Shown: in pieces, positions 3 through 46,784 of the stretch
Position numbering within the stretch: the stretch's first letter is position 1
Layout of the letters: each line of letters begins with the position of its first letter
Origin: Flavobacteriales bacterium
GTDB lineage: Bacteria > Bacteroidota > Bacteroidia > Flavobacteriales_D > Sanyastnellaceae
DNA: 46,854 nt
Assembly (NCBI GenBank): GCA_019694805.1
Contig: JAIBBG010000021.1
Span: 1-46,854, forward strand
Reading direction: 5' to 3'
The notes under the pieces: generated by a model
Seen by the model: the letters and a program-made list of their open reading frames with translations, nothing else
Databases searched by the model: none
Told to the model about the DNA's origin: nothing
Position numbers and translations under genes: made by a program

Positions 3-1478
3 GGTGCGTCGATTACAGCGGGAGAAAGCAATTCGGGTATCACCCTCCTATTCGATATCGCAGCGAGCAATCAAAGTATTTGCACGGGAAGTTGTATCGA
101 TTTTACTGACCTCACCACTCCTCAACCTAATTCCTGGTCCTGGCAATTCGATGGAGCCAATACGTCAACATCGGCCGTAGAGAATCCGACCAATATCTGC
201 TACGATGTTGCCGGTACTTATGATGTGATCCTCACCATCACGAATAGTTGCGGAACCTTCGACTTCACTTTTGATGATTTCATTGAAGTGTTAGATGTGG
301 CTCAACCAGTAATTATTGCCGATGGTCCGCTTACCTTTTGCGAAGGGCAATCGGTTGAACTGAGTGTGAATACACCGGGCACATATCAGTGGCAATTCAA
401 TGGAAATGATATCATAGACGCCATTCAAAATGTATATGAGGCAACGGAGACTGGTGACTATCAAGTGGTGGTGACCAATGGCCCGTGCGCTGCTGTTTCC
501 GAAACGATCACCATCAGTAGCGGTTTAACTCCTTATGCTGCGATCCTTCCTGATGATGACCAATTCTTGTGTGATGATTCGATGCTCATCGTTGGTGAAT
601 CCGACGGCGATATCCAATGGTACTTGGATGGAAATCCGATCATCGGTGCAACCAGTGATCAGCTCCTCGTTTCCTCCAGCGGTACGTATTGGTTCGAAGC
701 TTCATTCGGTGGAAGTTGTGCGACACTTTCCGATCCCATTCAAATAGCATTGGGCATTGAGGCGACCATCAACATCACAGCGAGTGATGATTCAGTGTGT
801 GCGGGTGATATCATCACGCTGACCATTTCAGGTGATTATGATAGCTTCACTTGGGAAAATGGCAGTGACTCATTGACCAGAAGCATTACCTCAACAGGTG
901 TTTATTCCGTGATTGCAGAAAAGGAAGGGTGTTTAGCTGATTCGAGCGTGGTGCTCTTTTTCTCTCCGCTTCCAACCATCGATGCCGGTTTGGATTTAGA
1001 AAGTACTTGCGAAGGTTATATGGAAATGTTCGCTACGGGAGAAGGCGAAATTTCCTGGTGGCTGGATGAAACTCTACTCATTGATTCCAGCGTTGTGGTT
1101 GTGGAAGCGCCTTCTAACAACATCACCTATACGGCGAAGGCAACATTGGACGGATGCATTTCTGAAGACCAAATGATGATCACGTCAGACTGTGTATCGA
1201 TCTATATACCGAATAGTCTCACTCCTAACGAAGACGGAATCAACGATGTATTCAAAGTGGAAGCGCGTGGGGTTTCCATTTATGAGTTCATCATCTTCAA
1301 TCGCTGGGGCGATGAAGTTTTTCGAAGCACAGACCCCGATGATGTTTGGACGGGTGGAAAAGACGATTATTATGTTCCGGATGGAGTTTATGTTTATCAA
1401 ATCACGGCATTGAATGAAAAGAACGAAAGCCTGATTGATAAAAAACACATGAGAGGAACGATTACCGTTTTCAGGTAA
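3..1478 (+). CDS. T9SS-secreted protein with gliding motility-associated C-terminal domain (5' truncated)
   Basis: The reading frame is open from the window edge (first full codon at base 3), so the N-terminus and signal peptide lie outside. The visible part starts with a PKD-like segment (PNSWSWQF, then AGTYDVILTI) and continues through several Ig-like/PKD-like modules with paired cysteines. The last ~95 residues match the gliding motility-associated C-terminal (CHU_C, type B T9SS sorting) family: IPNSLTPNEDGINDVFKV, a FNRWGDEVF motif, a VWTGG turn and YVPDGVYVYQI. Members of this family are exported across the outer membrane by T9SS and stay on the surface or are released. The internal ATG at 225 is not the real start. 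The stop overlaps the convergent ABC transporter gene by 8 bp. The ligand or function of the Ig-like region cannot be told from sequence. The family call is confident and the precise role is unknown. Confidence 0.9.
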   Translation, partial: GASITAGESNSGITLLFDIAASNQSICTGSCIDFTDLTTPQPNSWSWQFDGANTSTSAVENPTNICYDVAGTYDVILTITNSCGTFDFTFDDFIEVLDVAQPVIIADGPLTFCEGQSVELSVNTPGTYQWQFNGNDIIDAIQNVYEATETGDYQVVVTNGPCAAVSETITISSGLTPYAAILPDDDQFLCDDSMLIVGESDGDIQWYLDGNPIIGATSDQLLVSSSGTYWFEASFGGSCATLSDPIQIALGIEATINITASDDSVCAGDIITLTISGDYDSFTWENGSDSLTRSITSTGVYSVIAEKEGCLADSSVVLFFSPLPTIDAGLDLESTCEGYMEMFATGEGEISWWLDETLLIDSSVVVVEAPSNNITYTAKATLDGCISEDQMMITSDCVSIYIPNSLTPNEDGINDVFKVEARGVSIYEFIIFNRWGDEVFRSTDPDDVWTGGKDDYYVPDGVYVYQITALNEKNESLIDKKHMRGTITVFR

Positions 1479-3276
1479 AATTCTGCATCTCGACCAGCTT
1501 GCGGTAAACACCGTTGCGCGCCATCAATTCGTCGTGCGTGCCTTGTTCAGCAATTTTACCGTGATCTATTACGATGATCATATCTGCCTTTTGAATCGTG
1601 CTGAGTCGGTGAGCAATGACCAAAGACGTGCGATTCTCCATCAATTTGTTGATGGCATCTTGCACTAATTTTTCGCTATAAGTATCCAATGCGGATGTGG
1701 CCTCGTCGAGGATGAGGATTGGAGGATTTTTATACAATGCCCTTGCAATGGCAAGTCGTTGTTTTTGTCCGCCGCTCAGTTTATTGCCACTGTCACCAAT
1801 GTTGAAGTCATAGCCTTCCTGAATCTTCACAATAAATTCCTCAGCATTGGCGATACGTGCACTTTGCTGAATACGGTCCATATCGATTCCGGTAGCACCC
1901 AATGCGATGTTGTTTTTGATAGAGTCATTGAACAAGATCGATTCCTGAGAAACGAATCCCATGAGTTTGCGGATATCAGCAATGCGTGTGTCGCGGAGCG
2001 AATGTCCATCGATGGATACTTCGCCGCTGATGGGATCGTAGAATCTGGCGAGCAATGAAGCCAATGTGCTTTTACCACTTCCACTCGGACCAACAAGCGC
2101 CACAGTCTGTCCTTTTTTGATTTGAAAGGAAATGCCTTTGATCACTTCATCACCATAATAACCGAAGCGGATGTTTTTGAATTCAATGGAATCGTGAAAT
2201 CCATCCAGTGATTTGGCATCAGGTTTATCAAATACCGTGATCGGTGCATCGAGTATTTCGTTGATTCTTTCCAAAGAAGCCACACCTTTATTGATCTTGA
2301 AAATGGCATCACTGAATGCACGTGCAGGTTGGATGATTTGCGAAAAAACCACGAGATAACCAATGAGCATCTCCCCTCCCATTTCACCCGATATAACAAT
2401 CCGTCCGCCGAAAAAAAGCAAGATGGTGATGACGATCAACGAGATGAATTCACTCATCGGTGAACTCAGGTATTCCCTTCTGTACAACTTATGCATCAGT
2501 CGGAAATAGTAATCATTCATCCGATCGAATTTCTGTCTGAATTGACCTTCAGCATTAAAAACTTTGATGATGCGGTTACCAGTAAGTGTTTCTTCAATAA
2601 TGGAAATGAGTTCACCGAGTCCGCCTTTGCCGCGTTTTGCCGCATTCTTCAGGCTTTTGGCAATGCGCGATATCAAGAAGCCACTAACAGGTAAAAAGAG
2701 CAAAGCAAAAACAGTGAGTTTCCAACTGATCACGATGAGTGTCACAAGTGAAATCAAAATCATGATAGGAGACTTGAGCAATGCTTCGAGTGTTCCGATC
2801 ACACTGAACTCGATCTCCATCAGGTCGTTCGTCATACGTGAAATGATGTCGCCTTTTCTTTCATTGCTAAAAAATGCTACGGGTAGATCGAGCACTTTTT
2901 GATACATCTTTTCGCGGATATCTCTGGAGACCGAAGTCCTGATTCTGGCGATAGAGAAAAGAGAAAAATAGTTGACTACATTTTTCAAGAGAGCGAGAAC
3001 AACGATGAAGACGCACATCAGCGCAAGTGCGGTGCCTTGACCGTGTTGAGCGATGAAAGCATCGAGGCTTGAACTTGCCCACACCCAAAGTGCATTTCCT
3101 TTACCCGAAGATGTAGTGCCTGTGCTGTTCACCCTGAACAAGACATACAGAAAAGGCACAACAGCCAGGAAAGTGAACAATGAAAAAATGGCATTGAGAA
3201 TATTGAACAAAAAGTTCGATATCAGGCTGCTCTTATAGCCTTTGACAAGATTGAATATTAATCTGAACTTTTGCAT
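1471..3276 (-). CDS. MsbA-like ABC exporter (fused permease and ATPase)
   Basis: This 601-residue half-transporter has an N-terminal six-helix ABC exporter membrane domain (about residues 1-310) and a C-terminal nucleotide-binding domain. Visible ATPase motifs are Walker A GPSGSGKST, the signature LSGGQKQR, Walker B ILILDEATSALD and an H-loop in AHRLST. It would act as an inner-membrane homodimer. The family (MsbA and relatives) flips lipid A core, other glycolipids or drugs, and the substrate here is not determinable. I chose the ATG at 3276 (MQKFRLIF). An ORF start 15 codons upstream would overlap the end of purB and adds residues unlike the family. The gene begins 16 bp after purB on the same strand, so co-transcription is likely. 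Its 3' end overlaps the opposing gene by 8 bp. Confidence 0.9.
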   Translation of the reverse strand: MQKFRLIFNLVKGYKSSLISNFLFNILNAIFSLFTFLAVVPFLYVLFRVNSTGTTSSGKGNALWVWASSSLDAFIAQHGQGTALALMCVFIVVLALLKNVVNYFSLFSIARIRTSVSRDIREKMYQKVLDLPVAFFSNERKGDIISRMTNDLMEIEFSVIGTLEALLKSPIMILISLVTLIVISWKLTVFALLFLPVSGFLISRIAKSLKNAAKRGKGGLGELISIIEETLTGNRIIKVFNAEGQFRQKFDRMNDYYFRLMHKLYRREYLSSPMSEFISLIVITILLFFGGRIVISGEMGGEMLIGYLVVFSQIIQPARAFSDAIFKINKGVASLERINEILDAPITVFDKPDAKSLDGFHDSIEFKNIRFGYYGDEVIKGISFQIKKGQTVALVGPSGSGKSTLASLLARFYDPISGEVSIDGHSLRDTRIADIRKLMGFVSQESILFNDSIKNNIALGATGIDMDRIQQSARIANAEEFIVKIQEGYDFNIGDSGNKLSGGQKQRLAIARALYKNPPILILDEATSALDTYSEKLVQDAINKLMENRTSLVIAHRLSTIQKADMIIVIDHGKIAEQGTHDELMARNGVYRKLVEMQNFT

Positions 3277-3292
3277 AGGCTCATGCTTCGCA

Positions 3293-4657
3293 TCAAAACT
3301 CGTTGGCCAATAGATCAACACCTGTGTAGCCGGAAGGTGAAATCCTCATCAATTCCTTTTTCACTTCATCCGATACATCGAGTGTTTGAATAAACTGTTG
3401 GATATCGTTTTTGCCAATAGTGGTTTTACCGCGGGTTAAACTTTTCAATGCCTCATATGGATTCGGATAGTTTTCCCTTCTGAGGATGGTTTGAATGGCT
3501 TCTGCAACGACAGCCCAATTGTCTTCGAGGTCATTGGCAAGGGCTTTCTCATTCAATTGAATTTTACTCAAACCCTTTTCAATGGAATTCAAAGCAATGA
3601 TCGTGTGCGCCATGGGAACACCAATATTGCGTAATACTGTGCTATCAGTAAGGTCGCGTTGCAATCGGCTCACCGGGAGTTTTGCTGCCAGGTGTTCGAG
3701 CAATGCATTGGCAATACCGAGATTGCCTTCTGCATTTTCAAAGTCGATTGGATTCACCTTGTGAGGCATCGCAGACGATCCCACCTCACCTTCTTTCACT
3801 TTTTGGGTGAAATAATTCATGGAGATATATGTCCAGATATCCCGACACAAATCGATCAGAATAGTATTGGTTCTTTTGAGTGTGTCAAAAGCCGCTGCCA
3901 TATTATCGTAATGTTCAATCTGTGTGGTAAATTGAGATCGACGGAGATTCAATCTGGCGGAAAGAAAACCATTGGCAAATTCCACCCAGTCAATTTCCGG
4001 ATAAGCCACATAGTGTGCATTGAAATTTCCTGTAGCACCGCCAAATTTGGCATTGTAAGGAATCTCTTCGAGTTGATTCAGTTGTTCATCGAGTCGATCG
4101 ACAAATACATAAAACTCTTTACCCAATCGAGTTGGAGAAGCAGGTTGACCGTGCGTACGTGCGAGCATGGGAACATCTTTCCATTGCTTCGACATATCGA
4201 TGAGTTTTTCGAGAATTTTATCTACTCCCGGAATATAGATTTCCTCCACGGCATCTCTGAAAGAAGCCGGAATAGCGGTATTGTTGATGTCTTGTGACGT
4301 GAGTCCGAAATGGATGAACTCTTTGTAAGCCGATAGTCCGAGGGTTTCAAATTGTTCCTTGATAAAATACTCAACGGCTTTGACGTCATGGTTGGTGGTT
4401 CTTTCCAATTCCTTCACACGCATGACATGGGCTGGTTCCAGCTTTTGATAAATACTCCGCAGTTTGGGAAATAAGTTGTGATTGAGGTCCTGCAATTGCG
4501 GCAGTGGAATTTCACACAAACCGATGAAATACTCCACCTCTACCCATATTCTGTAGCGGATCAGTGCCTGTTCGGAGAAGTAAGGCGCGAGAACTTCAGA
4601 TTGATTGCGATAGCGGCCGTCAATGGGCGAAATGGCAGAAAGTGGATGTAGATCCAT
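3293..4657 (-). CDS. purB: adenylosuccinate lyase
   Basis: PurB catalyses two fumarate-releasing steps in purine synthesis: SAICAR to AICAR, and adenylosuccinate to AMP. The protein is 454 residues from the chosen ATG (MDLHPLSAISPIDGRY), close to the 456 of E. coli PurB. An upstream ATG at 4711 would add 18 atypical residues. The superfamily signature is clear: SSAMPHKVNPIDFE, which carries the flexible catalytic loop serine. The early SPIDGRY motif, HDVKAVEYF and LTSQDINNTA are PurB-type. The enzyme is cytoplasmic and tetrameric in characterised homologues. A candidate -7 box lies 23 nt upstream, and the ABC exporter gene follows 16 bp downstream with no functional link visible. Confidence 0.97.
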   Translation of the reverse strand: MDLHPLSAISPIDGRYRNQSEVLAPYFSEQALIRYRIWVEVEYFIGLCEIPLPQLQDLNHNLFPKLRSIYQKLEPAHVMRVKELERTTNHDVKAVEYFIKEQFETLGLSAYKEFIHFGLTSQDINNTAIPASFRDAVEEIYIPGVDKILEKLIDMSKQWKDVPMLARTHGQPASPTRLGKEFYVFVDRLDEQLNQLEEIPYNAKFGGATGNFNAHYVAYPEIDWVEFANGFLSARLNLRRSQFTTQIEHYDNMAAAFDTLKRTNTILIDLCRDIWTYISMNYFTQKVKEGEVGSSAMPHKVNPIDFENAEGNLGIANALLEHLAAKLPVSRLQRDLTDSTVLRNIGVPMAHTIIALNSIEKGLSKIQLNEKALANDLEDNWAVVAEAIQTILRRENYPNPYEALKSLTRGKTTIGKNDIQQFIQTLDVSDEVKKELMRISPSGYTGVDLLANEF

Positions 4658-4801: not shown

Positions 4802-7800
4802 TTATTTATTGCTAATAACAAGTTTCTCGTGCAACACATCATTTCCGGCTTTCACCATGATGGTATAAACACCAGATTCGAATGTACGTGCATCCATAGA
4901 CCAGTTGTAAAGACGACCACCTTCAGCAACACCGTTGTAGAAAGGAACGAGTTCACGACCGGTTGCATCGTAGATCGCACCGTAAACTTGAGTATCCACA
5001 GGAACACTCATTTTCAGTGTGAAGTTGCCATGCGCTGGGTTTGGATAAGCCAACACGTGTACGATGGCTGGAACGTCAACAATAACGTGGATTGTCTGGG
5101 TTGCAGTCGTTACGTTACCACAATCATCAACTACAGTCCAGGTGCGAATTACATCGTATGGACAGAAGTCGTTGGTCTGAGTTTCAGTGAAGCTCACAAC
5201 CAGACCTTCAGAACAGTTGTCTGTAGCAGTTACTTCAGGAACTGAAGGCAGATCACCACCACAAACAATAGTTACTTCTTCAGCAGGCAGGTTGTTGAGA
5301 ACCGGAGCGCTGCTGTCTACGATATCTACAATCTGGAACGCAGTTGCAGTGTTACCGCAGTTATCTGTTGCGAGGTAAGTGCGGAGGAGACTTCCGTAGC
5401 ACTGACCAGAAACCTGAGATTCTTCGATGATCACTACATCAACCATTGCGTCGCAGTTGTCAGTTGCAGTGAGCATGTAAGCATCAACTTCATCACATTC
5501 AACAGTTACATATGGGAGGTATGCATCGAATACTGGGTTCTCTTCATCATATACGCTGATGATCTGAGTACCAACTGTTGTGTTACCACAATCGTCAGTA
5601 GCAGTCCATGTGCGGATGATGTTGTATGGACAACCTTCTTCAACAACTTCATTGTAGGTTACAACCACTTCGTCGTCACAGTTATCCATAGCAGAGAGCT
5701 CTGGAGCTGATGGGATCTGAGTGCAAGGAACGCTCAAATCAGCAGGAACTTCAATCACCGGAGCGATGGTATCAGTCACAGTAATGATTTGTGGCAATGA
5801 AGTCATGTTACCGCAAGCATCGATGGCGTTGTAGTAACGCTTGATCTGATAGTAGCAGCTACCTGGGATGATATCTTCAACAACAGTTACAGTGATATCC
5901 TGATCACAGTTGTCAGTTGCATAAACAGCATCTGAAGCAGCTGGGATTGGCTCATTGCAAAGGATGGTGATGTCACCAGGAATATTGAAGATCACTGGAG
6001 CAGTTTCATCCAACACGTAGATGAACTGAGTAGCTACAGATGAATTTCCGCAGTCGTCAGATACAGTCCAGGTGCGCTCGATGAAGAATCCGCATTCCAA
6101 TGCTGTTGTATCAGCGTTGAATTCGATATTCACTTCTTCAGTGCAATTATCATAAGCTTCGATGCTTGCAGGAGCAGGAATTTCCTGACCGCATTCCAAA
6201 GTAAGGTCTGCTGGTGAAGAAACGATAACCGGATCAGTTGTATCCACTACGTGGATGATTTGGTTAACTACTGTTACGTTTTCGCAGTAGTCCATAGCAG
6301 TCCATGTTTTCACGATGTCATAACCACAAGCTGTTTCGTTTTCGATAGAAACGGTTGGAGTTACTGTGAAGTTATCATCACAAACATCAGCGAATGATGG
6401 GTTCATTTCAGGAATGATCTGATCACATTCGTAAGTCAATTCAGCAGGAACGTTTTCTACTACAACCGGAGCAGTAGTATCGTGGATTCCGATGTACTGA
6501 GTGTATTCGAAGCTATTGCCACAGTTGTCAGTAACAACCCATGTTCTGATGATAGTACCTGGGCAACCACCGCTAGACCATTCTTCGTTGAAATCAACAT
6601 CGAGGTTGGTATCGCAGTTGTCACCGAATACTGGATTGTTTACTGGTACTTCCTGACCACACTCGATGGTGTAGTATACAGGAGGATTGTTCACCAGGTA
6701 TGGATCTTGTGTATCAACCACAGTAATTACTTGTGTAGCTGTTGTTTCGTTACCGCAAACATCTGTTGCAGTCCAAGTGCGTGTGATGGTGTAAGGACAA
6801 CCTTCAGTAACAGTCTCAACCATTACAACAGTTGGGATGGTGCAGTTGTCAGTAGCAGTTACATCTGCAGGAGCTGGAACTTCGTCGCATTCCACTTCAG
6901 CGTTCGCAGGAACACCAACGAGGATTGGATCAGTCGTATCTACAACGTGAATCACTTGATAAACAGTTGTGCTGTTATCACAGTCATCTGTTGCAGTCCA
7001 AGCACGCTGGATATCATAACCACAATCTGAAACGTTAGCAATTCCGCTGATCGCATTCACATCGAGTGAATCGTCGCAGTTGTCAGAGAATGATGGCATG
7101 TAGAATGGTGTAGGCTGATCACACTCGATAGTGAGTTCAGCAGGAACACCTTCTGTCACGATTGGGTCAGTGGTATCAACAAAGTTGATCACCTGAGTTG
7201 CAGTGGTAGTGTTACCACAGTTATCAGTTACAGACCAAGTACGTGTGAATACATAACCACATTCGTTGTAAACAGTACCTGCTTCGAGGCTTACCACGAG
7301 GTTTTCTGAGCAGTTGTCAGTAGCAGTCACAACCGCTTCTGGAGCGATCTGATCACACTCGAGGGTTGTATTAGCAGGAACACCTACGAGAACAGGATAA
7401 GTAGTATCAATGACAGTGATGATCTGAGATACAGAAACATCATTGCCGCAGTTGTCAACACCAGTCCATGTGCGGATGATGGTGTAAGGACATCCTTCGC
7501 TCTGAGTTTCGTTGAATGATACTGCAACGTTTTGATCGCAGTTGTCCATTCCGTAAACCAATGCTGGAGCTGGGATTTCATCACACTCAACGGTTACATT
7601 AGCAGGTACACCTACCAATGAAGGATCGGTTGTATCAGTAACATAAAGAGTTTGTGAAGCTGAAGCAGTGTTGTCGCAATCATCAGAAACAGTCCAATGA
7701 CGAACCAATGTGTAGTAGCAATCGTTACCAGGGATGAACTGTTCGTAGTAACCTACTTCCATGTCCTGATCACAGTTGTCAGTTGCAGTTACCATGGCTG

Positions 7801-10800
7801 GTGCTGGAATGTTTGAACATTCAACCTGAGCATCAGCTGGAACCCCTACCAATACTGGGTTAGTAGTATCTACTACCAGGATAGTTTGTGAAGCTGTAGA
7901 CTGGTTACCACACTCGTCTGTAGCAGTCCAAGTGCGTGTGATGGTGTAAGGACAACCTTCAGTTGCAGTCTGTGAGTAAGACACAGTTGCAGTAGAACAG
8001 TTATCAGTAGCTGTTACGTTAGCAGGAGCAGGAACAGCGTCACACTCCACTTCAGTATTCGCTGGAACACCAACCAGGATTGGATCAGTAGTGTCGCGAA
8101 CGTGGATGATCTGATAAACAGTCGTGCTGTTATCGCAGTCATCTGTTGCAGTCCAAGCGCGCTCGATATCATATCCGCAGGCATTCACGTTGCTGATACC
8201 GCTGATAGCAGAGATTGCCAAGGTATCGTCGCAGTTGTCAGAGAATGAAGGCATATAGAAAGGTGCATCCTGATCACACTCGATGGTGAGTTCAGCTGGA
8301 ACACCTTGTGTTACGATTGGATCAGTTGTATCAACGAAGTTGATCACCTGAGTTGCAGTAGTTGTGTTACCGCAGTTGTCAGTAACAGACCATGTACGTG
8401 TGAATACGAAACCACACTCATTGTAATCTGTACCAGCTTCGAGGCTAACCACGAGGTTTTCTGAGCAGTTGTCAGTAGCAGTTACAACAGCCTCAGGAGC
8501 GATCTGATCGCACTCGAGGGTTGTGCTCGCTGGAACACCGTGAAGAACTGGGTATGTAGTATCAATAACCGTGATGATCTGTGTAGCAGTAACGTCGTTA
8601 CCACAGTTGTCAACACCAGTCCAGGTGCGGGTAATGGTGTATGGACATCCTTCGCTCTGAGTTTCGTTGAATGAAACTGCAACGTTTTGATCGCAGTTGT
8701 CCATTCCGTAAACCAATGCTGGAGCTGGGATTTCATCACACTCAACCGTTACGTTAGCAGGTACACCTACCAATGATGGATCGGTTGTATCTGTTACGTA
8801 GAGGATTTGTGAAGCTGAAGTTGTGTTGTCACAATCATCTGTTACTTCCCAATGACGAACCAATGTGTAATAGCAATCGTTACCAGGGATGAACTGTTCG
8901 TAGTAACCTACTTCCATGTCCTGATCACAGTTGTCAGTTGCAGTAACTACAGCAGCAGCAGGAATGTTTGAACATTCAACCTGTGCATCAGCTGGAACAC
9001 CATGAAGAACTGGGTTGGTAGTATCTACCACCAGGATGGTTTGTGAAGCTGTAGACTGGTTACCACACTCGTCTGTAGCAGTCCAAGTGCGTGTGATGGT
9101 GTAAGGACAACCTTCAGTTGCAGTCTGTGAGTAAGACACAGTTGCAGTAGAACAGTTATCAGTAGCTGTTACGTTAGCAGGAGCAGGAACAGCGTCACAC
9201 TCCACTTCAGTATTCGCTGGAACACCAACCAGGATTGGATCAGTAGTGTCGCGAACGTGGATGATCTGATAAACAGTCGTGCTGTTATCGCAGTCATCTG
9301 TTGCAGTCCAAGCGCGCTCGATATCATATCCGCAGGCATTCACGTTGCTGATACCGCTGATAGCAGAGATTGCCAAGGTATCGTCGCAGTTGTCAGAGAA
9401 TGAAGGCATATAGAAAGGTGCATCCTGATCACACTCGATGGTGAGTTCAGCTGGAACACCTTGTGTTACGATTGGATCAGTTGTATCAACGAAGTTGATC
9501 ACCTGAGTTGCAGTAGTTGTGTTACCGCAGTTGTCAGTAACAGACCATGTACGTGTGAATACGAAACCACACTCATTGTAATCTGTACCAGCTTCGAGGC
9601 TAACCACGAGGTTTTCTGAGCAGTTGTCAGTAGCAGTTACAACAGCCTCAGGAGCGATCTGATCGCACTCGAGGGTTGTGCTCGCTGGAACACCGTGAAG
9701 AACTGGGTATGTAGTATCAATAACCGTGATGATCTGTGTAGCAGTAACGTCGTTACCACAGTTGTCAACACCAGTCCAAGTGCGGGTAATGGTGTATGGA
9801 CATCCTTCGCTCTGAGTTTCGTTGAAGGAAACTGCAACGTTTTGATCGCAGTTGTCCATTCCGTAAACCAATGCTGGAGCTGGGATTTCATCACACTCAA
9901 CCGTTACGTTAGCAGGTACACCAACCAATGATGGATCAGTAGTATCTGTTACGTAGAGGATTTGAGTTGCTGAAGTTGTGTTGTCACAATCATCAGTTAC
10001 TTCCCAATGACGAACCAATGTGTAGTAGCAATCGTTACCTGGGATGAATTGTTCGTAGTAACCTACTTCCATATCCTGATCACAGTTGTCAGTTGCAGTA
10101 ACTACAGCAGCAGCAGGAATGCTTGAACATTCAACCTGCGCATCAGCAGGAACACCATGAAGAACTGGGTTGGTAGTATCTACCACCAGGATGGTTTGTG
10201 AAGCTGAAGACTGATTACCACATTCGTCTGTAGCAGTCCAAGTGCGTGTGATGGTGTAAGGACAACCTTCAGTTGCAGTCTGTGAGTAAGACACAGTTGC
10301 AGTAGAACAGTTATCAGTAGCAGTTACTTCAGCAGGAGCTGGAACAGCATCACATTCCACTTCAGTATTCGCAGGAACACCAACGAGGATTGGGTCTGTA
10401 GTATCTACAACGTGGATAACCTGGTAAACAGTCGTGCTGTTACCACAGTCGTCTGTTGCAGTCCAAGCGCGTTCGATATCGTAACCGCAAGCGCTTACGT
10501 TATTGATTCCGCTGATGGCTGAAAGTGCCAATGTATCATCACAGTTGTCTGCGAATGAAGGCATATAGATTGGTTCTGGCTGATCACACTCGATGGTGAG
10601 TTCAGCAGGAACACCTTGTGTTACGATAGGATCAGTTGTATCCACGAAGTTGATCACCTGAGTTGCAGTAGTTGTGTTACCACAGTTGTCAGTTACAGAC
10701 CATGTACGTGTGAATACGAAACCACACTCGTTGTAAACTGTGCCGGCTTCATGGCTCACCACAAGATTTTCAGTACAGTTGTCGCTTGCAGTAACAACAG

Positions 10801-13800
10801 CCTCTGGAGCGATCTGATCGCACTCGAGGGTTATGCTTGCTGGAACACCGTAAAGAACTGGATAAGTGGTATCAACTACAGTGATCACCTGAACACCAAC
10901 GGTCACGTTGTCGCAATCGTCAGTAGCAGTCCAGGTACGGGTGATGGTATAAGGACATCCTTCTGTAGCAGTTTCGCTGAAAGTAACATCAACTTCTGAA
11001 TCACAGATATCAGAAGCAGTAACCACTGGAACAGCAGGTACAGCATCACATTCAACAGTTGTGCTTTGTGGAAGGTTATCGAATACTGGATCAGTTGTAT
11101 CGATGATAGAAATGATCTGTTCGAAAATGGTAGAATTATCGCAGTCGTCAGTAGCTGTCCATCTGCGGATCAATCCATTTACACAACCACCACTCACTTC
11201 GAATTCTTCGAATACCACGTCGAGGTTTTCGTCGCAGTTGTCATCAAACTGTGGAGCGATGAGTTCTGCAGTTGTACCACACTCGATGGTCAGGTGAATG
11301 GCTGGGCCTGATACAACGATTGGATCAGTCGTATCCACTACTACGATGGTTTGTGTAGCTGTAGACTGGTTACCACATTCGTCAGTAGCAGTCCAAGTGC
11401 GTGTGATGGTATAAGGACAACCAGTTGTTGCAGTCTGTGAGTAAGACACAGTAGCAGTTGAACAGTTGTCAGTAGCGGTAACTTCAGCAGGAGCTGGTAC
11501 CGCGTCGCATTCAACTTGTGTATTCGCAGGAACACCCACGAGGATTGGATCGGTAGTATCGCGAACATGGATGATCTGATAAACAGTTGTGCTGTTATCA
11601 CAATCATCGGTTGCAGTCCAAGCGCGTTCGATATCATAACCACAAGCGTTCACGTTGTTAATACCGCTGATTGCAGTAACAGTCAATGAATCGTCGCAGT
11701 TGTCAGAGAATAAAGGCATATAGATTGGTGCATCCTGATCACACTCGATGGTGAGTTCAGCTGGAACACCTTGTGTTACGATTGGATCAGTTGTATCAAC
11801 GAAGTTGATCACCTGAGTTGCAGTCGTAGTGTTACCGCAGTCGTCAGTAACTGACCAAGTGCGTGTGAATACGAAACCACACTCGTTGTAGTCAGTTCCG
11901 GCGCTATGGCTAACAATCATGTTCTCAGAACAGTTGTCAATAGCGGTCACCACAGCTTCAGGAGCCAATTGGTCACATTCTAAAGTTGTGTTGGCTGGAA
12001 CGCCGATCAGAACAGGATATTCATTGTCATAAACAGAATAAACACGGGTTGCTGTAGCAGTGTTACCACAATCATCGGAAACTGTGAAAGTGAATGTTCT
12101 GGTTAAGTTACAACCTTCACCTTGATCGGCATAACTCATTTCAACTTCAAGGTCATTATCACAATTGTCAGAAGCAGTCACATCAAAGCTCATTGGCAAT
12201 GTGCCGCATTCCACTGAATTATTATTAGGAAGATTATTGAATACTGGATCAGTAGTATCGTGAACATTGATTACCTGATATACGTAGGTAACATTGCAAC
12301 CATCAGTTGCCATCCAGATTCTTGTAACCACATAACCACAGCCATCTGGAGTCACTTCTTCAGTCATCCAAGTTTCTTCCACTGTGCCACATTCATCAGT
12401 GAATGTAACAACTGGAGGAGCAGGAACCTCATCTAAGCATTGTACTGAAGTGTTTTCAGGCTGAACGCTTGGAATTGGGCCTTCATTATCGCCTGTGATG
12501 AAGTATTGATCAAATGTTGCGATGTTGTCGCACAAATCGTGTGCAGTCCAGATTCTGTGATGAGTGCAAGAGCAAGCGGCATCAGGCTGCTGGCAATTCA
12601 CAAATCCATGATTTGAACCACCATCAAAGTTTTCATTGATACCGGTGAGCACTTCATTCAAAGAGCTGTATGTGTAAGCATTGCTGCAACCACCGATAAC
12701 TTGGTTTGCAATGGCTACTACTTGAGAAATGGTCATACCAGCAAATGTTCCGCTGGCAATGGTTTGGTTACCCAAGAATCCTGTAGAACCACCAAAGTTT
12801 GGATCATAAGCGTCGAATCCGAGAGCGAGCGTTACAGCAACCAACTGGCCAGCCAATACGTTGTTGTAAGAGTTACCTGGATTTACCAAATCAGATGGAA
12901 GTGCAGAAGGAGTGCTTCCTGAAGGAAGGAAGTCCTGAACTGCCTGAGCACTGGTGAGTGTCAAGGTATTTCCAGGATTACAACCGATAGTCAAACCAGA
13001 AGGGAATGCACCGGCGAAATTCGCATTTCTATAAACACCTGGGTTATTACCGTGAGCAGGAGCTCCCCAGCCACCTTGAGTATATGTGCGGAAGTCACAT
13101 GAAGCCTGGCTATTGTTGTTGCAGGTTTCAACATCCACATAAGTATAGGTAACCGGACCATTGTTATCTGTAGCAGTCGGTTGGATATATGGAACAGATT
13201 CTGTGCAACCCAAGTCATAAGTTGACTGTTGTTGATCGAATACAGGAGGTACATCATCACCAGTAACTACTACTGTGTCTGAATCTGTACAACCATTGCA
13301 ATCTGTCACTGTCACAGTATATGTACCAGGCATATTTACAGTCACTGTTGCACCGTTGTTAGCACCAACGATACCAGGACCCGACCACAAATATGACACG
13401 GCATTGTTGCCTGAACCTGTTGTTGTGTATTTCACATAATCAACACGGAAAGCACAATTTCCGTTATCGGAAATTTTGATATAACGCGCAGGAGATGCGA
13501 GAGTATAGCAGAATTCCTGATAGCTAGATTGTGAGAAAGTAACTGAAGAAGTCAAATTGGTGAAGCCTGAATTTGAAGCCAATGAAGCCTGAATTTTAGC
13601 ATTGGAATAATTCGTATTTGAATTGTTGCAATGTTCCAGTTTCATGCTTGCACAAATTTGAGTACCCGCAGGAAGTTCAACACCCATATCCAATACGATA
13701 TAAGATGTACCCTGACCACTTTGTGTCCAAAGTTTGGTACCCGCATTGTCTCCACAAACTGCAGAATTGGATGGGCTTTCTAACCAGCCGCCCTGTCCAG

Positions 13801-15673
13801 CCAATGTATGGTTGCAATCTGAAGTGCCTTGTGTTTGACAATTTGAAGCACCAGTAACAGTACTGGTCAATTGCACTTGTTGTGGATAGCAAAGTTGCTG
13901 ATCAGGACCAGCAGTTACATCCAATGCGCAACATCCGTTGTTATGTACGATTACTTCGTCAGTATCTGTGCAGCCATTGCAATCAGTAACAGTAACTATA
14001 TAAACACCAGTTTGATTCACTTGAATGCTTGGACCATTGTTAGCGCCAACTATTCCGGCACCAGACCACATATAAGAAATGCCGCTGTTGTTGATGCTTG
14101 GAGTTGTGTACTCTACATAATCAACACGGAATGCACAGTTACCATTGTCTGAAATTTTGATGTAACGTGCAGAAGAAGCCAATGTGTAGCAAAATTCTTG
14201 ATAGTAATTCTGAGTGAATGTCACAGAATTGGTAAGACTTACATAAGTTCCATTCAAAGCGGTAGAAGCTTGAATTTTTGCGTTCGAATAATTTGTGCCT
14301 GTGTTACTGCAATGTTCCAATTTCATGTTTGCACAAATCTGTGTACCAGCTGGCAAATCAGCACCGAGATCAAGAATGATGTATGAAGTTCCTTGTCCAC
14401 TCTGTGTCCAAAGCTTAGTGCCGGCATTGTCGCCACAAACTGCAGAACTTGATGGGCTTTCTAACCATCCACCCTGTCCGGCCAAAGAATGATTGCAATC
14501 AGAATCACCACCAGATTGGCAAGTTGATGCGCCGGTAGTTGTTGCAGTCAAAGTAATGGTTTCATTTCCGCAAAGCTGTCTGTCTTCACCAGCATTCACA
14601 AAAATTGAACATGATTCAATATTGAAATTGAAAATTTCCTGATCACACATCATTCCGGCACCATTGTCCTGAGAATAAAGACTCACGATCAATGTATAAG
14701 AGCCAGAACCCAAATTCAAACCAGTGTTGTCATCTGGTGATCTAAAAGGAACTGCGTTTTGGGTATTGTCAGTAGTATAAGAACCAGACCAATCAAATAC
14801 AACGCTTTCTGCAGTAGTACCAGATACTACTGCTTCGATATTCCAGTTGGTTGGTAAACCAGATAAGTTATAAGTAGCACCATTGGTAAGAGCAGTGCTA
14901 GTACCATTGGTGATGTTGTAAATAACTACATCATCGATGTTGGCATCGCAACATGGAGTTACTTCAACGAAAATATCATTTGATTCACCTACGTAGTTTG
15001 AACAACCTTGTCTTCTGGAGCAACGGCGGAAATACGTATCTTCATAGATAGGACCCGCATCATATGTCAAACCAGTTGCGCCATTAATCTGGGTCATGTT
15101 CCAGCCTGTAGAAGCATTCCAGTACATCCAGATGATTTCAAGCGCACCAGAACCACCAGCAGGACTTGCCACGTTGGTGAAAGGGGCTGGATCAAAACCA
15201 GAACAACCTGACTGGTTGGATCCGATTGTTCCGCCACTAGTCAGGTTGTTGCATGTATTGCAGTTGATGGTAACTGTACAGTCGTTGGATTCTCCATCCC
15301 ACGTCGGACAGCCACTTCTGCGGCAGCATCTTCTGAATGTGGTCGTTTCATTGATTGAAGGACAGTCATAAGTGTTTGAACTTGCCCCACTCACTGGAAC
15401 GAATTGCCAGTCTGTGCTGGAGTTCTTGTAGAGCCACATGTACTCCAGGGAACCTGAACCACCAGATGGGCTGGTAACATTGAGAAACATAGACGGGTTG
15501 TAACCAACGTTTCCTGTCTGGTTGGATCCGATAGATCCTCCATAAGTGACGTTGTTACACTGAGCCGATGTCTCAGTGCCAGAAAGCAATAATGCAGTCG
15601 TGAATATCAAGGCGTAAATCGCGCTGGATACAAACCGACTACAGACAGAAGAAAAAGCGTAAAAGTGCTTCAT
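4802..15673 (-). CDS. giant secreted HYR-like repeat protein with type A T9SS sorting domain
   Basis: This 3,623-residue protein starts with a signal peptide (residues 1-38, hydrophobic core IYALIFTTALLL, ending SAQ). Next come two ~100-residue modules with GGSIGSNQ starts (about 40-240), an Ig-like segment (about 241-355), and two near-duplicate discoidin-like modules (about 388-521 and 618-748). From about residue 805, some 33 HYR-like domains of ~77 residues follow, each with a VEC..DNC..C..DxCGN cysteine pattern and a DTTDP linker. The first is interrupted by an extra domain (about 850-1030). The last ~85 residues form a type A T9SS sorting domain (YPNPAHGNFTLKM, then GVYTIMVKAG). It is probably an extracellular adhesin or surface filament, which is inference from architecture. 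It has its own candidate promoter and terminator. The five-domain super-repeat is listed separately. Confidence 0.93.
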   Translation of the reverse strand: MKHFYAFSSVCSRFVSSAIYALIFTTALLLSGTETSAQCNNVTYGGSIGSNQTGNVGYNPSMFLNVTSPSGGSGSLEYMWLYKNSSTDWQFVPVSGASSNTYDCPSINETTTFRRCCRRSGCPTWDGESNDCTVTINCNTCNNLTSGGTIGSNQSGCSGFDPAPFTNVASPAGGSGALEIIWMYWNASTGWNMTQINGATGLTYDAGPIYEDTYFRRCSRRQGCSNYVGESNDIFVEVTPCCDANIDDVVIYNITNGTSTALTNGATYNLSGLPTNWNIEAVVSGTTAESVVFDWSGSYTTDNTQNAVPFRSPDDNTGLNLGSGSYTLIVSLYSQDNGAGMMCDQEIFNFNIESCSIFVNAGEDRQLCGNETITLTATTTGASTCQSGGDSDCNHSLAGQGGWLESPSSSAVCGDNAGTKLWTQSGQGTSYIILDLGADLPAGTQICANMKLEHCSNTGTNYSNAKIQASTALNGTYVSLTNSVTFTQNYYQEFCYTLASSARYIKISDNGNCAFRVDYVEYTTPSINNSGISYMWSGAGIVGANNGPSIQVNQTGVYIVTVTDCNGCTDTDEVIVHNNGCCALDVTAGPDQQLCYPQQVQLTSTVTGASNCQTQGTSDCNHTLAGQGGWLESPSNSAVCGDNAGTKLWTQSGQGTSYIVLDMGVELPAGTQICASMKLEHCNNSNTNYSNAKIQASLASNSGFTNLTSSVTFSQSSYQEFCYTLASPARYIKISDNGNCAFRVDYVKYTTTGSGNNAVSYLWSGPGIVGANNGATVTVNMPGTYTVTVTDCNGCTDSDTVVVTGDDVPPVFDQQQSTYDLGCTESVPYIQPTATDNNGPVTYTYVDVETCNNNSQASCDFRTYTQGGWGAPAHGNNPGVYRNANFAGAFPSGLTIGCNPGNTLTLTSAQAVQDFLPSGSTPSALPSDLVNPGNSYNNVLAGQLVAVTLALGFDAYDPNFGGSTGFLGNQTIASGTFAGMTISQVVAIANQVIGGCSNAYTYSSLNEVLTGINENFDGGSNHGFVNCQQPDAACSCTHHRIWTAHDLCDNIATFDQYFITGDNEGPIPSVQPENTSVQCLDEVPAPPVVTFTDECGTVEETWMTEEVTPDGCGYVVTRIWMATDGCNVTYVYQVINVHDTTDPVFNNLPNNNSVECGTLPMSFDVTASDNCDNDLEVEMSYADQGEGCNLTRTFTFTVSDDCGNTATATRVYSVYDNEYPVLIGVPANTTLECDQLAPEAVVTAIDNCSENMIVSHSAGTDYNECGFVFTRTWSVTDDCGNTTTATQVINFVDTTDPIVTQGVPAELTIECDQDAPIYMPLFSDNCDDSLTVTAISGINNVNACGYDIERAWTATDDCDNSTTVYQIIHVRDTTDPILVGVPANTQVECDAVPAPAEVTATDNCSTATVSYSQTATTGCPYTITRTWTATDECGNQSTATQTIVVVDTTDPIVVSGPAIHLTIECGTTAELIAPQFDDNCDENLDVVFEEFEVSGGCVNGLIRRWTATDDCDNSTIFEQIISIIDTTDPVFDNLPQSTTVECDAVPAVPVVTASDICDSEVDVTFSETATEGCPYTITRTWTATDDCDNVTVGVQVITVVDTTYPVLYGVPASITLECDQIAPEAVVTASDNCTENLVVSHEAGTVYNECGFVFTRTWSVTDNCGNTTTATQVINFVDTTDPIVTQGVPAELTIECDQPEPIYMPSFADNCDDTLALSAISGINNVSACGYDIERAWTATDDCGNSTTVYQVIHVVDTTDPILVGVPANTEVECDAVPAPAEVTATDNCSTATVSYSQTATEGCPYTITRTWTATDECGNQSSASQTILVVDTTNPVLHGVPADAQVECSSIPAAAVVTATDNCDQDMEVGYYEQFIPGNDCYYTLVRHWEVTDDCDNTTSATQILYVTDTTDPSLVGVPANVTVECDEIPAPALVYGMDNCDQNVAVSFNETQSEGCPYTITRTWTGVDNCGNDVTATQIITVIDTTYPVLHGVPASTTLECDQIAPEAVVTATDNCSENLVVSLEAGTDYNECGFVFTRTWSVTDNCGNTTTATQVINFVDTTDPIVTQGVPAELTIECDQDAPFYMPSFSDNCDDTLAISAISGISNVNACGYDIERAWTATDDCDNSTTVYQIIHVRDTTDPILVGVPANTEVECDAVPAPANVTATDNCSTATVSYSQTATEGCPYTITRTWTATDECGNQSTASQTILVVDTTNPVLHGVPADAQVECSNIPAAAVVTATDNCDQDMEVGYYEQFIPGNDCYYTLVRHWEVTDDCDNTTSASQILYVTDTTDPSLVGVPANVTVECDEIPAPALVYGMDNCDQNVAVSFNETQSEGCPYTITRTWTGVDNCGNDVTATQIITVIDTTYPVLHGVPASTTLECDQIAPEAVVTATDNCSENLVVSLEAGTDYNECGFVFTRTWSVTDNCGNTTTATQVINFVDTTDPIVTQGVPAELTIECDQDAPFYMPSFSDNCDDTLAISAISGISNVNACGYDIERAWTATDDCDNSTTVYQIIHVRDTTDPILVGVPANTEVECDAVPAPANVTATDNCSTATVSYSQTATEGCPYTITRTWTATDECGNQSTASQTILVVDTTNPVLVGVPADAQVECSNIPAPAMVTATDNCDQDMEVGYYEQFIPGNDCYYTLVRHWTVSDDCDNTASASQTLYVTDTTDPSLVGVPANVTVECDEIPAPALVYGMDNCDQNVAVSFNETQSEGCPYTIIRTWTGVDNCGNDVSVSQIITVIDTTYPVLVGVPANTTLECDQIAPEAVVTATDNCSENLVVSLEAGTVYNECGYVFTRTWSVTDNCGNTTTATQVINFVDTTDPIVTEGVPAELTIECDQPTPFYMPSFSDNCDDSLDVNAISGIANVSDCGYDIQRAWTATDDCDNSTTVYQVIHVVDTTDPILVGVPANAEVECDEVPAPADVTATDNCTIPTVVMVETVTEGCPYTITRTWTATDVCGNETTATQVITVVDTQDPYLVNNPPVYYTIECGQEVPVNNPVFGDNCDTNLDVDFNEEWSSGGCPGTIIRTWVVTDNCGNSFEYTQYIGIHDTTAPVVVENVPAELTYECDQIIPEMNPSFADVCDDNFTVTPTVSIENETACGYDIVKTWTAMDYCENVTVVNQIIHVVDTTDPVIVSSPADLTLECGQEIPAPASIEAYDNCTEEVNIEFNADTTALECGFFIERTWTVSDDCGNSSVATQFIYVLDETAPVIFNIPGDITILCNEPIPAASDAVYATDNCDQDITVTVVEDIIPGSCYYQIKRYYNAIDACGNMTSLPQIITVTDTIAPVIEVPADLSVPCTQIPSAPELSAMDNCDDEVVVTYNEVVEEGCPYNIIRTWTATDDCGNTTVGTQIISVYDEENPVFDAYLPYVTVECDEVDAYMLTATDNCDAMVDVVIIEESQVSGQCYGSLLRTYLATDNCGNTATAFQIVDIVDSSAPVLNNLPAEEVTIVCGGDLPSVPEVTATDNCSEGLVVSFTETQTNDFCPYDVIRTWTVVDDCGNVTTATQTIHVIVDVPAIVHVLAYPNPAHGNFTLKMSVPVDTQVYGAIYDATGRELVPFYNGVAEGGRLYNWSMDARTFESGVYTIMVKAGNDVLHEKLVISNK
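7146..11765 (-). repeat. four tandem 1,155-bp (385-residue, five-domain) super-repeats inside the giant gene
   Basis: The anchor ACACCTTSTGTYACGAT, which encodes the start of the IVTQGVPAEL-type domain, recurs at 7146, 8301, 9456, 10611 and 11766, each exactly 1,155 bp apart. Each period encodes five different ~77-residue HYR-like domains in the same order (IVTQG-, ILVGVPANT-, VLHGVPADA-, SLVGVPANV- and VLHGVPASTT-types). The copy nearest the N-terminus (10611-11765) has divergent third and fourth domains. The two central copies are the most alike, and the outer copies diverge more. This is the pattern expected from repeated duplication of a five-domain block. Confidence 0.95.
7884..9779 (-). 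repeat. 740-bp direct repeat, apparently perfect (7884-8623 and 9039-9778)
   Basis: Comparing the bases at a 1,155-bp offset, I found no difference between 7884-8623 and 9039-9778. The match is bounded by single differences at 7883/9038 and 8624/9779. Flanking sequence in the same phase is similar but carries scattered substitutions. Identity at synonymous sites over more than 700 bp indicates a very recent duplication or gene conversion. The comparison was by eye. Confidence 0.9.
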
Positions 15674-18917: not shown

Positions 18918-18966
18918 TTCAACTTACAACTCACAATTCATAATTCATAATTCATAATTCATAATT
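18918..18966 (-). repeat. AATTATG heptamer repeat downstream of rpe
   Basis: On the minus strand there are four perfect AATTATG units (18939-18966), then three decaying units (AATTGTG, AGTTGTA, AGTTGAA). The array starts 6 bp after the rpe stop codon. A similar array in the same sense orientation follows the glycosyltransferase gene at 46715. The remainder of 18691-18972 shows nothing I can name. Confidence 0.85.
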
Positions 18967-18972
18967 CACACC

Positions 18973-19620
18973 TCATTTCTTCAACGCCTCAATCGTCCCC
19001 ACCGGATCTGCCGTTGCAAATACCGCATTGCCAGCAACGAGAACATCCGCACCTGCATCGACGACTTTACGATAATTGTTGAGTGATACTCCCCCATCCA
19101 CTTCAATCACGAAAGATGCACCGCAAGCTTCACGCATGGTTTTGGCTTCGCTGATCTTGGCGAGAGACCTTTCAATAAATGACTGTCCACCAAAACCCGG
19201 ATTCACACTCATCACAAGCAGCAGATCCATATCATGGGCTATTTCCCTGAGTACAGAAACAGGAGTATGTGGATTAATCGCCACACCCGCTTTCATTCCT
19301 TCCTGTTTGATGTATTGAATGGTTCTATGCAAATGCGTGCATGCCTCCGCATGTACAGTTAGGATATCAGCGCCACATTTCTTGAATGCGGGTATATAGC
19401 GATCAGGATCTACAATCATCAGATGGACATCCAATGGTTTGGTAGCATGCTTTTTCACTGCGCTGATCACCGGCATACCGAATGAAATATTGGGAACAAA
19501 AAGACCATCCATCACATCGACATGAAACCAATCTGCTTGAGATCGGTTGATCATGTCAATATCACGCTGCAGGTTTGCAAAATCTGCGGATAGTATGCTG
19601 GGTGCTATAAGGTGTGCCAT
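18973..19620 (-). CDS. rpe: ribulose-phosphate 3-epimerase
   Basis: Rpe interconverts ribulose 5-phosphate and xylulose 5-phosphate in the pentose phosphate pathway. The 215-residue TIM barrel is the usual family length. Motifs seen in order are IAPSILSADF at the N-terminus, the metal-binding HVDVMDG, DVHLMIVDP, TVHAEA, MSVNPGFGGQSF in the flexible catalytic loop, and EVDGGVS carrying the second catalytic Asp. The ATG at 19620 begins MAHLIAPSILS, as in homologues. It lies 18 bp after uvrB, but the gap holds a perfect -7 box (19628-19635), so it may also have its own promoter with an almost absent leader. Confidence 0.97.
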   Translation of the reverse strand: MAHLIAPSILSADFANLQRDIDMINRSQADWFHVDVMDGLFVPNISFGMPVISAVKKHATKPLDVHLMIVDPDRYIPAFKKCGADILTVHAEACTHLHRTIQYIKQEGMKAGVAINPHTPVSVLREIAHDMDLLLVMSVNPGFGGQSFIERSLAKISEAKTMREACGASFVIEVDGGVSLNNYRKVVDAGADVLVAGNAVFATADPVGTIEALKK

Positions 19621-46709: not shown

Positions 46710-46714
46710 TTGGG

Positions 46715-46784
46715 AATTATGAATTATGAATTATGAATTATGAATTATGAGTTATGAATTAAGAATTATGAGTTGAGAATTGTC
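46715..46784 (+). repeat. AATTATG heptamer repeat downstream of the GT2 gene
   Basis: Ten consecutive 7-bp units run from 46715 to 46784: five perfect AATTATG units, then variants AGTTATG, AATTAAG, AATTATG, AGTTGAG and AATTGTC. The array begins 5 bp after the GT2 stop codon in the sense orientation. Because the period is 7, TGA stop codons fall in all three frames. Beyond it, to the window end, I see no gene. Confidence 0.9.

Follow-up and report, generated by a model that had tools for sequence, protein, structure and literature searches.

A five-domain block as the probable unit of growth in a giant HYR_4C protein with a type IX sorting domain from a Flavobacteriales bacterium

Results

A five-domain register with exact spacing

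The stretch of DNA analysed here (the window: 46,854 nucleotides of a Flavobacteriales bacterium, assembly GCA_019694805.1, contig JAIBBG010000021.1, positions 1 to 46,854) encodes a 3,623-residue protein in which a long array of HYR_4C domains (PF23237) is followed by a C-terminal sorting domain of the type IX secretion system (T9SS). We consider it probable, at roughly 85%, that a block of five domains (1,155 bp) spread by in-register tandem duplication in the interior of this array, and that the predicted stalk lengthens in whole five-domain steps. Growth by multi-domain blocks is already known from nebulin and cadherin; the novelty lies in an unusually clear series of orthologues.

The Pfam match to HYR_4C reached 583 bits against a gathering score of 27, in 32 stretches. 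The four cysteines are present in 32 of 32 full HYR_4C domains, and one entry of 154 residues with eight cysteines corresponds to two domains. Together with an insertion-split HYR-like domain ahead of the array this makes 33 domains, the approximate number given by an earlier reading of the letters and open reading frames (the sequence-only reading). That reading also placed one anchor at 7146, 8301, 9456, 10611 and 11766, with a successive gap of 1,155 bp, and all five anchors were found at these positions. Over 40 bp the anchor is identical at 8301, 9456 and 11766, and carries two differences at 10611 and five at 7146. When the DNA of the array was compared with itself at offsets from 150 to 3599, the highest identities were obtained at 1155 (0.675), 2310 (0.601) and 3465 (0.518), against a background over all offsets of mean 0.252 and s.d. 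0.028, so that the proposed self-comparison did give 1,155 bp as the best offset. The array was not detected by Tandem Repeats Finder, used with a longest period of 500.

Domain lengths cycle through 77, 79, 75, 78 and 76 residues, adding up to 385, and are kept constant between copies as had been claimed. Similarity between domains is 0.43-0.45 at lags of one to four domains and 0.70 at lag 5 (median 0.43; p 0.001 with 1,000 shuffles of domain order). In a tree of the domains, classes recur at every fifth position and neighbouring domains do not cluster, which is the outcome expected if the array is not a simple one-domain repeat: class A comprises domains 4, 9, 14, 19 and 24, class B 5, 10, 15, 20 and 25, class C 6, 11, 16, 21 and 26, class D 12, 17 and 22, and class E 13, 18 and 23. 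The clades of A, C, D and E are starred for support and that of B has 89/85. Protein identity is 88-96% within a class and 36-63% between classes.

The register was confirmed, with some corrections to its description. Its extent, put at 7146-11765 and at domains 4 to about 26, is wider, and covers 24 consecutive domains (4-27) at 6482-12028. The word "exact" holds for the spacing and fails for the sequence, since block pairs range from 62% to 95% identity in DNA over 385 codons. Nor is the same block repeated throughout: classes A to C recur five times and D-E three times, and the class string of the array reads 1 2, then A B C D' E', three times A B C D E, A B C D' and six more domains. D' denotes a different fourth domain, found in block 1 and in the last block (domains 7 and 27), and the fifth domain of block 1 (domain 8) lies outside class E. 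Pairs of domains at least 80% identical one unit apart cover domains 4-25 of the 33, which places the duplication in the middle of the array.

Block ages and mosaic structure

Synonymous (dS) and nonsynonymous (dN) divergences were obtained from scripted Nei-Gojobori counts, in which high dS values are only approximate. For the A-C portion, the comparison of blocks 1 and 2 gave a dS of 0.76 and a dN of 0.08 (dN/dS about 0.1), and the A domains by themselves gave 1.53 and 0.12. These counts indicate that blocks 1 and 2 diverged long ago and have been kept under purifying selection. Blocks 3 and 4, in turn, match exactly over 740 bp (9039-9778 and 7884-8623), a tract that crosses three domain borders.

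Informative sites among blocks 2, 3 and 4 fall into two regimes. In A-C, 76 of 78 sites join blocks 3 and 4; in D-E, 48 of 62 join blocks 2 and 3, with 12 joining 3 and 4 and two joining 2 and 4. These sites form 14 runs, against a mean of 64.8 and a minimum of 46 in 5,000 shuffles. By the arrangement of their sites, blocks 2, 3 and 4 are mosaics, and D-E-A-B-C looks like the youngest duplicated unit. Differences number 16 in 462 sites between the D-E portions of blocks 2 and 3, and 2 in 693 sites between the A-C portions of blocks 3 and 4.

An orthologue series in steps of five domains

Residues 1-1215 were used as the query against 5.8 billion proteins; 81 proteins were returned, our own included, and the domains of 12 of them were classed. 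Orthologues were taken from this search because N-terminal matches were poor elsewhere: among 40 genomes searched with the N-terminal 391 residues, seven gave a match (own included), the best of the others reaching 54% over 140 residues. A contig scan with the orthologue alignment gave eight loci, with best segments 33-51% identical. A further search, made with a C-terminal piece, found matches in 74 of 114 genomes (own included); since many of these arose through the array itself, it was not used for orthologue counts.

The distance from the first to the last A domain is 4, 5, 4, 4, 3, 2 and 2 times 385 residues in P0001, P0002, P0004, P0005, P0006, P0007 and P0011, respectively. Recognition of the first A domain is weak in P0004 and P0005 (best match 49%, to B), where the first and last B also lie 4 x 385 residues apart. 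Whole multiples of 385 residues thus occur in seven of the 12 classed proteins, the window protein among them, P0008 has a unit of 386, and four do not fit; the comparison of orthologues for copy-number change in multiples of five, proposed in the sequence-only reading, thus gave a largely positive result. All 31 ABC triplets of the seven proteins are 231 residues long, and they align over 231 columns.

A tree of the pairs formed by the fourth and fifth domains (D-E) grouped all seven C-edge pairs in one clade (100/100), that is, by position. Interior pairs cluster by protein in four of the five proteins with at least two such pairs: P0004 (identical), P0002 (100/97), P0005 (93/91) and, weakly, P0001 (83/70). 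Taken together with the domain tree and the 385-residue multiples, this grouping supports the proposal that this gene has grown by whole blocks and not by single domains.

P0008 offers a side observation: its 386-residue block matches D, E and A of the window protein in order, the other two domains reach no more than 49% identity with B and 54-60% with C or D, and domains nearer to B and C (63% and 69%) occur once, after the array.

Other unit sizes in paralogues and relatives

Different units were found in the same genome and in related proteins. The paralogue L020 has a 3-domain unit nested in six and L019 a 6-domain unit; in L022 and L023 an offset of five domains scores best (389 and 386 residues), with p values against shuffled order (0.013 and 0.08) above 0.01. 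The L020 protein (P0148) and P0134 have array domains 81-94% identical and differ by one whole 3-domain block. P0084 (labelled Sanyastnella coralliicola in its source) carries a 4-domain unit four times and a C-terminal 402-residue module 48% identical to that of the window protein; P0088 also has 4-domain units, and the module is common to both at 47-48%. In the record presumed to be the S. coralliicola genome the unit measures 939 bp. Compared with P0084, P0086 has domains 90-100% identical and the 4-domain unit once, i.e. three blocks and two domains fewer. A period of five is also seen in the more distant P0008, P0015, P0082 and P0083, with blocks of 375-388 residues.

Our survey sample comprised the 81 proteins together with the best 120 of 2,277 (170 distinct) and nine frames of the own genome, in all 179 sequences from searches seeded with the window protein; since that protein was the query, a true frequency of fives cannot be given. 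At least ten domains were present in 155, and 154 remained after one duplicate was dropped. Periodicity at p <= 0.01 was found in 104 of the 154, and a clear unit in 44: one domain in 9, two in 4, three in 6, four in 5, five in 16, six in 3 and eight in 1. Without the eleven orthologues and near relatives, a unit of five remained in 8. In the 35 proteins with a unit of at least two domains, the most similar stretch (80% or more) is internal in 25, absent in three and within two domains of an end in seven (five at the N end, three at the C end, one at both).

For two giants of this genome, further details were noted. L020 (573-9809, plus strand, contig C88) encodes a 3,079-residue HYR_4C protein with the 3-in-6 nesting, its relatives P0132 and P0134 nest the unit in nine, and the gene ends about 1 kb ahead of the sprA match (C88:311839). 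L026 (3-5099, minus strand, contig C74) encodes a related giant whose repeats measure 85 residues and reach up to 98% identity over 150 residues; it provides a one-domain contrast.

Protein architecture, export and predicted fold

The features of the gene are listed in Table 1. The Por_Secre_tail domain at residues 3543-3620 scored 33.8 bits with Pfam (threshold 27) and 32.5 with TIGR04183 (threshold 23), and residues 1-37 resemble a signal peptide, as judged by eye. The genome encodes SprA, matched by TIGR04189 twice within a single 2,541-residue frame (1862 and 525 bits), and at least 150 Por_Secre_tail matches (150 of 247 candidates scored). From its sorting domain and its array, the 3,623-residue protein is predicted to be exported by the T9SS and to form a surface fibre.

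Table 1. Features of the HYR_4C gene in the window
Feature	Position	Strand	Basis
Open reading frame, HYR_4C giant with C-terminal T9SS sorting domain, 3,623 residues	4802..15673	-	open reading frame and profile scans
N-terminal module of ~213 residues, two copies, residues 364-576 and 591-803	13265..14584	-	157/213 columns identical
First HYR-like domain, insertion-split, borders approximate	12491..13240	-	sequence; profile match to C-terminal part
Block 1, A B C D' E', N-side edge block	10874..12028	-	domain lengths, domain tree, block identity
Block 2, A B C D E	9719..10873	-	domain lengths, domain tree, block identity
Block 3, A B C D E	8564..9718	-	domain lengths, domain tree, block identity
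Block 4, A B C D E	7409..8563	-	domain lengths, domain tree, block identity
Block 5, partial, A B C D', C-side edge block	6482..7408	-	lengths, tree, identity, orthologue classing
740-bp tract identical to 7884-8623, offset 1,155 bp; end of E, A, B and most of C; youngest tract	9039..9778	-	
C-terminal run of six non-periodic HYR_4C domains (28-33), framework common to orthologues	5078..6481	-	
Por_Secre_tail / TIGR04183, T9SS type A sorting domain, residues 3543-3620	4814..5047	-	Pfam and NCBIfam

For structure prediction a sliding alignment of 939 columns was built, aligned by class and not by position. The structure model had a predicted local distance difference test score (pLDDT) of 88.4 and a predicted template modelling score (pTM) of 0.42, a value at which no confident geometry between domains can be read. 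Foldseek ranked protocadherins first, N-cadherin fifth and the RTX adhesin repeat 6xi1 sixth; a sequence search of the PDB gave no match at E 0.1.

No known adhesive domain was found in the Pfam and NCBIfam scans of the protein, and its N-terminal modules are unclassified. A module of ~98 residues is doubled as well (residues 39-136 and 141-238, 53/98 identical) and precedes the pair of ~213 residues. The insertion in the first HYR-like domain measures ~170 residues, is also present in the consensus of seven orthologues and is perhaps a nested functional domain. Elsewhere in the window, AT-rich short tandem repeats (7/14/21 bp) lie at 18926-18976 and 46714-46781, outside the listed long open reading frames.

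Discussion

Growth by in-register duplication would be explained by unequal recombination between block copies, which we infer to drive the change in copy number. Adjacent domains, whose classes are 36-63% identical in protein, would be too divergent for efficient recombination, and copies five apart can be identical over hundreds of bases; exchange would therefore slip by 1,155 bp, keeping both the reading frame and the fold. Duplication of a phase-shifted D-E-A-B-C unit would leave the pattern seen in blocks 2-4, to which a later conversion or a second duplication would have to be added, as D-E of blocks 2 and 3 differ more than A-C of blocks 3 and 4.

Several observations weigh against this account. 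The four proteins that depart from multiples of 385 are P0003, P0013, P0009 and P0010; the first two carry the framework ends yet break the register, and the class matches of the last two are mostly weak. The two D-E pairs of P0006 do not fall together, which shows that homogenisation does not extend to every interior. Nor are edges fixed throughout, since P0005 and P0006 carry a D-E block on the N-terminal side of the D'-E' block. At the N edge the pairs split into two groups, with one row left unplaced, and do not make a single clade; the tree of ABC triplets is less clean than that of D-E, with the C-edge triplet of P0004 falling among interior ones. Apart from the window protein, the orthologues are six database entries, none replicated in further strains, and the single copy of the 4-domain unit in P0086 lies on a draft contig and may be an assembly collapse.

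The sequence-only reading suggested that the register may reflect a structural unit of the extracellular fibre, and a block of five acting as a structural or binding unit, with selection holding the register, could account for purifying selection on each class past synonymous divergence (as in the A domains of blocks 1 and 2), for the constant 231 residues of the ABC triplets, for the period of five in distant relatives and for the best offset of L022 and L023, for all their p values. We regard this as unlikely. Paralogues in the same genome are built from 3- and 6-domain blocks, P0084 and P0088 from 4-domain blocks despite their common C-terminal module, and P0013 breaks the register; because the register differs between genes of one genome, a period by itself should not be taken as a sign of a structural unit. 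Selection on the fold of each domain accounts for the constraint without a five-domain unit, and block geometry cannot be read from a model with this pTM. The suggestion thus found no backing; most likely the five-domain register reflects duplication history, and the number five most likely stems by chance from the duplication that founded the array in this lineage.

The number of repeats might instead be a product of assembly, copies 3 and 4 or more having been duplicated or collapsed. An exact 740-bp repeat within a 106-contig draft speaks for this and makes the exact block count in the own genome uncertain. Yet blocks 1, 2 and 5 are readily told apart from the others, the D and E domains of blocks 3 and 4 are not the same, and like arrays stand on contigs of 3.59 Mb (P0008, period 5), 4.10 Mb (P0084, period 4) and 7.08 Mb (P0110, period 3), which makes this explanation very improbable. 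Least credible of all is that single domains were duplicated first and acquired the five-fold register later through selection or gene conversion between like positions. Single-domain growth does occur in the family, with lag-1 similarity in nine of the 44 clear related arrays, but neighbours in the window protein are no closer than other out-of-register positions, and the exact tract spans domain borders. We therefore retain in-register duplication of the five-domain block.

In the passages of Bjorklund et al. (2006; PMC1553488) considered here, domain repeats are described as often expanding several domains together, often in mid-array, with blocks of seven in nebulin, five in cadherin and four in FN3. 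The window gene resembles those proteins in its multi-domain autocorrelation peak, its mid-array growth and neighbours less alike than domains one block apart. To judge from the same passages, it differs from them in being a bacterial, intron-free HYR_4C gene with a unit size that varies among genes of one genome and a whole-unit series of orthologues. The BadA stalk of Bartonella henselae (PMC8859334) is likewise part of a giant bacterial surface protein with domain arrays, and the available passages propose that recombination alters these arrays and report lengths that differ between isolates. BadA is, however, a trimeric autotransporter with neck and stalk domains and not a T9SS cargo, and those passages mention no fixed multi-domain register. 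Fibrillar adhesin-like proteins, as far as described in the portion of PMC8286594 at hand, share the great length and the tandem stalk-type domains, and differ in that no adhesive Pfam domain was found in the window protein; the term HYR is absent from the main text of that paper. By predicted fold (Foldseek), the extender repeats of RTX adhesins and the cadherins are alike in having tandem beta-sandwich domains. Judged by titles and the start of abstracts, no work on the HYR_4C repeat class in Bacteroidota was among the literature matches listed, which is weak evidence because most subscription journals fall outside the scope of the search, and HYR_4C or PF23237 was named in none of the matches listed in a search for PF23237.

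The arrays bring to mind the higher-order repeats of satellite DNA, which serve as a comparison for turnover in an array interior. Tentatively, HYR_4C giants might be stalks quantised in length, each gene having a private quantum of three, four, five or six domains, a conserved C-terminal module and an interior that turns over in a similar manner; recombination might then step fibre length within living populations while the fold is kept and neighbours stay different.

The finding adds a clear series from bacteria, a single gene family with 2, 3, 4 and 5 five-domain steps between common ends, alongside parallel pairs with other units (one 3-domain block in P0148/P0134; three 4-domain blocks and two domains in P0084/P0086). 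That the register is reproducible within orthologues yet varies among genes of one genome separates duplication history from structure, and the region 6482-12028 is pinpointed as the one where close strains may vary the length of the stalk in steps.

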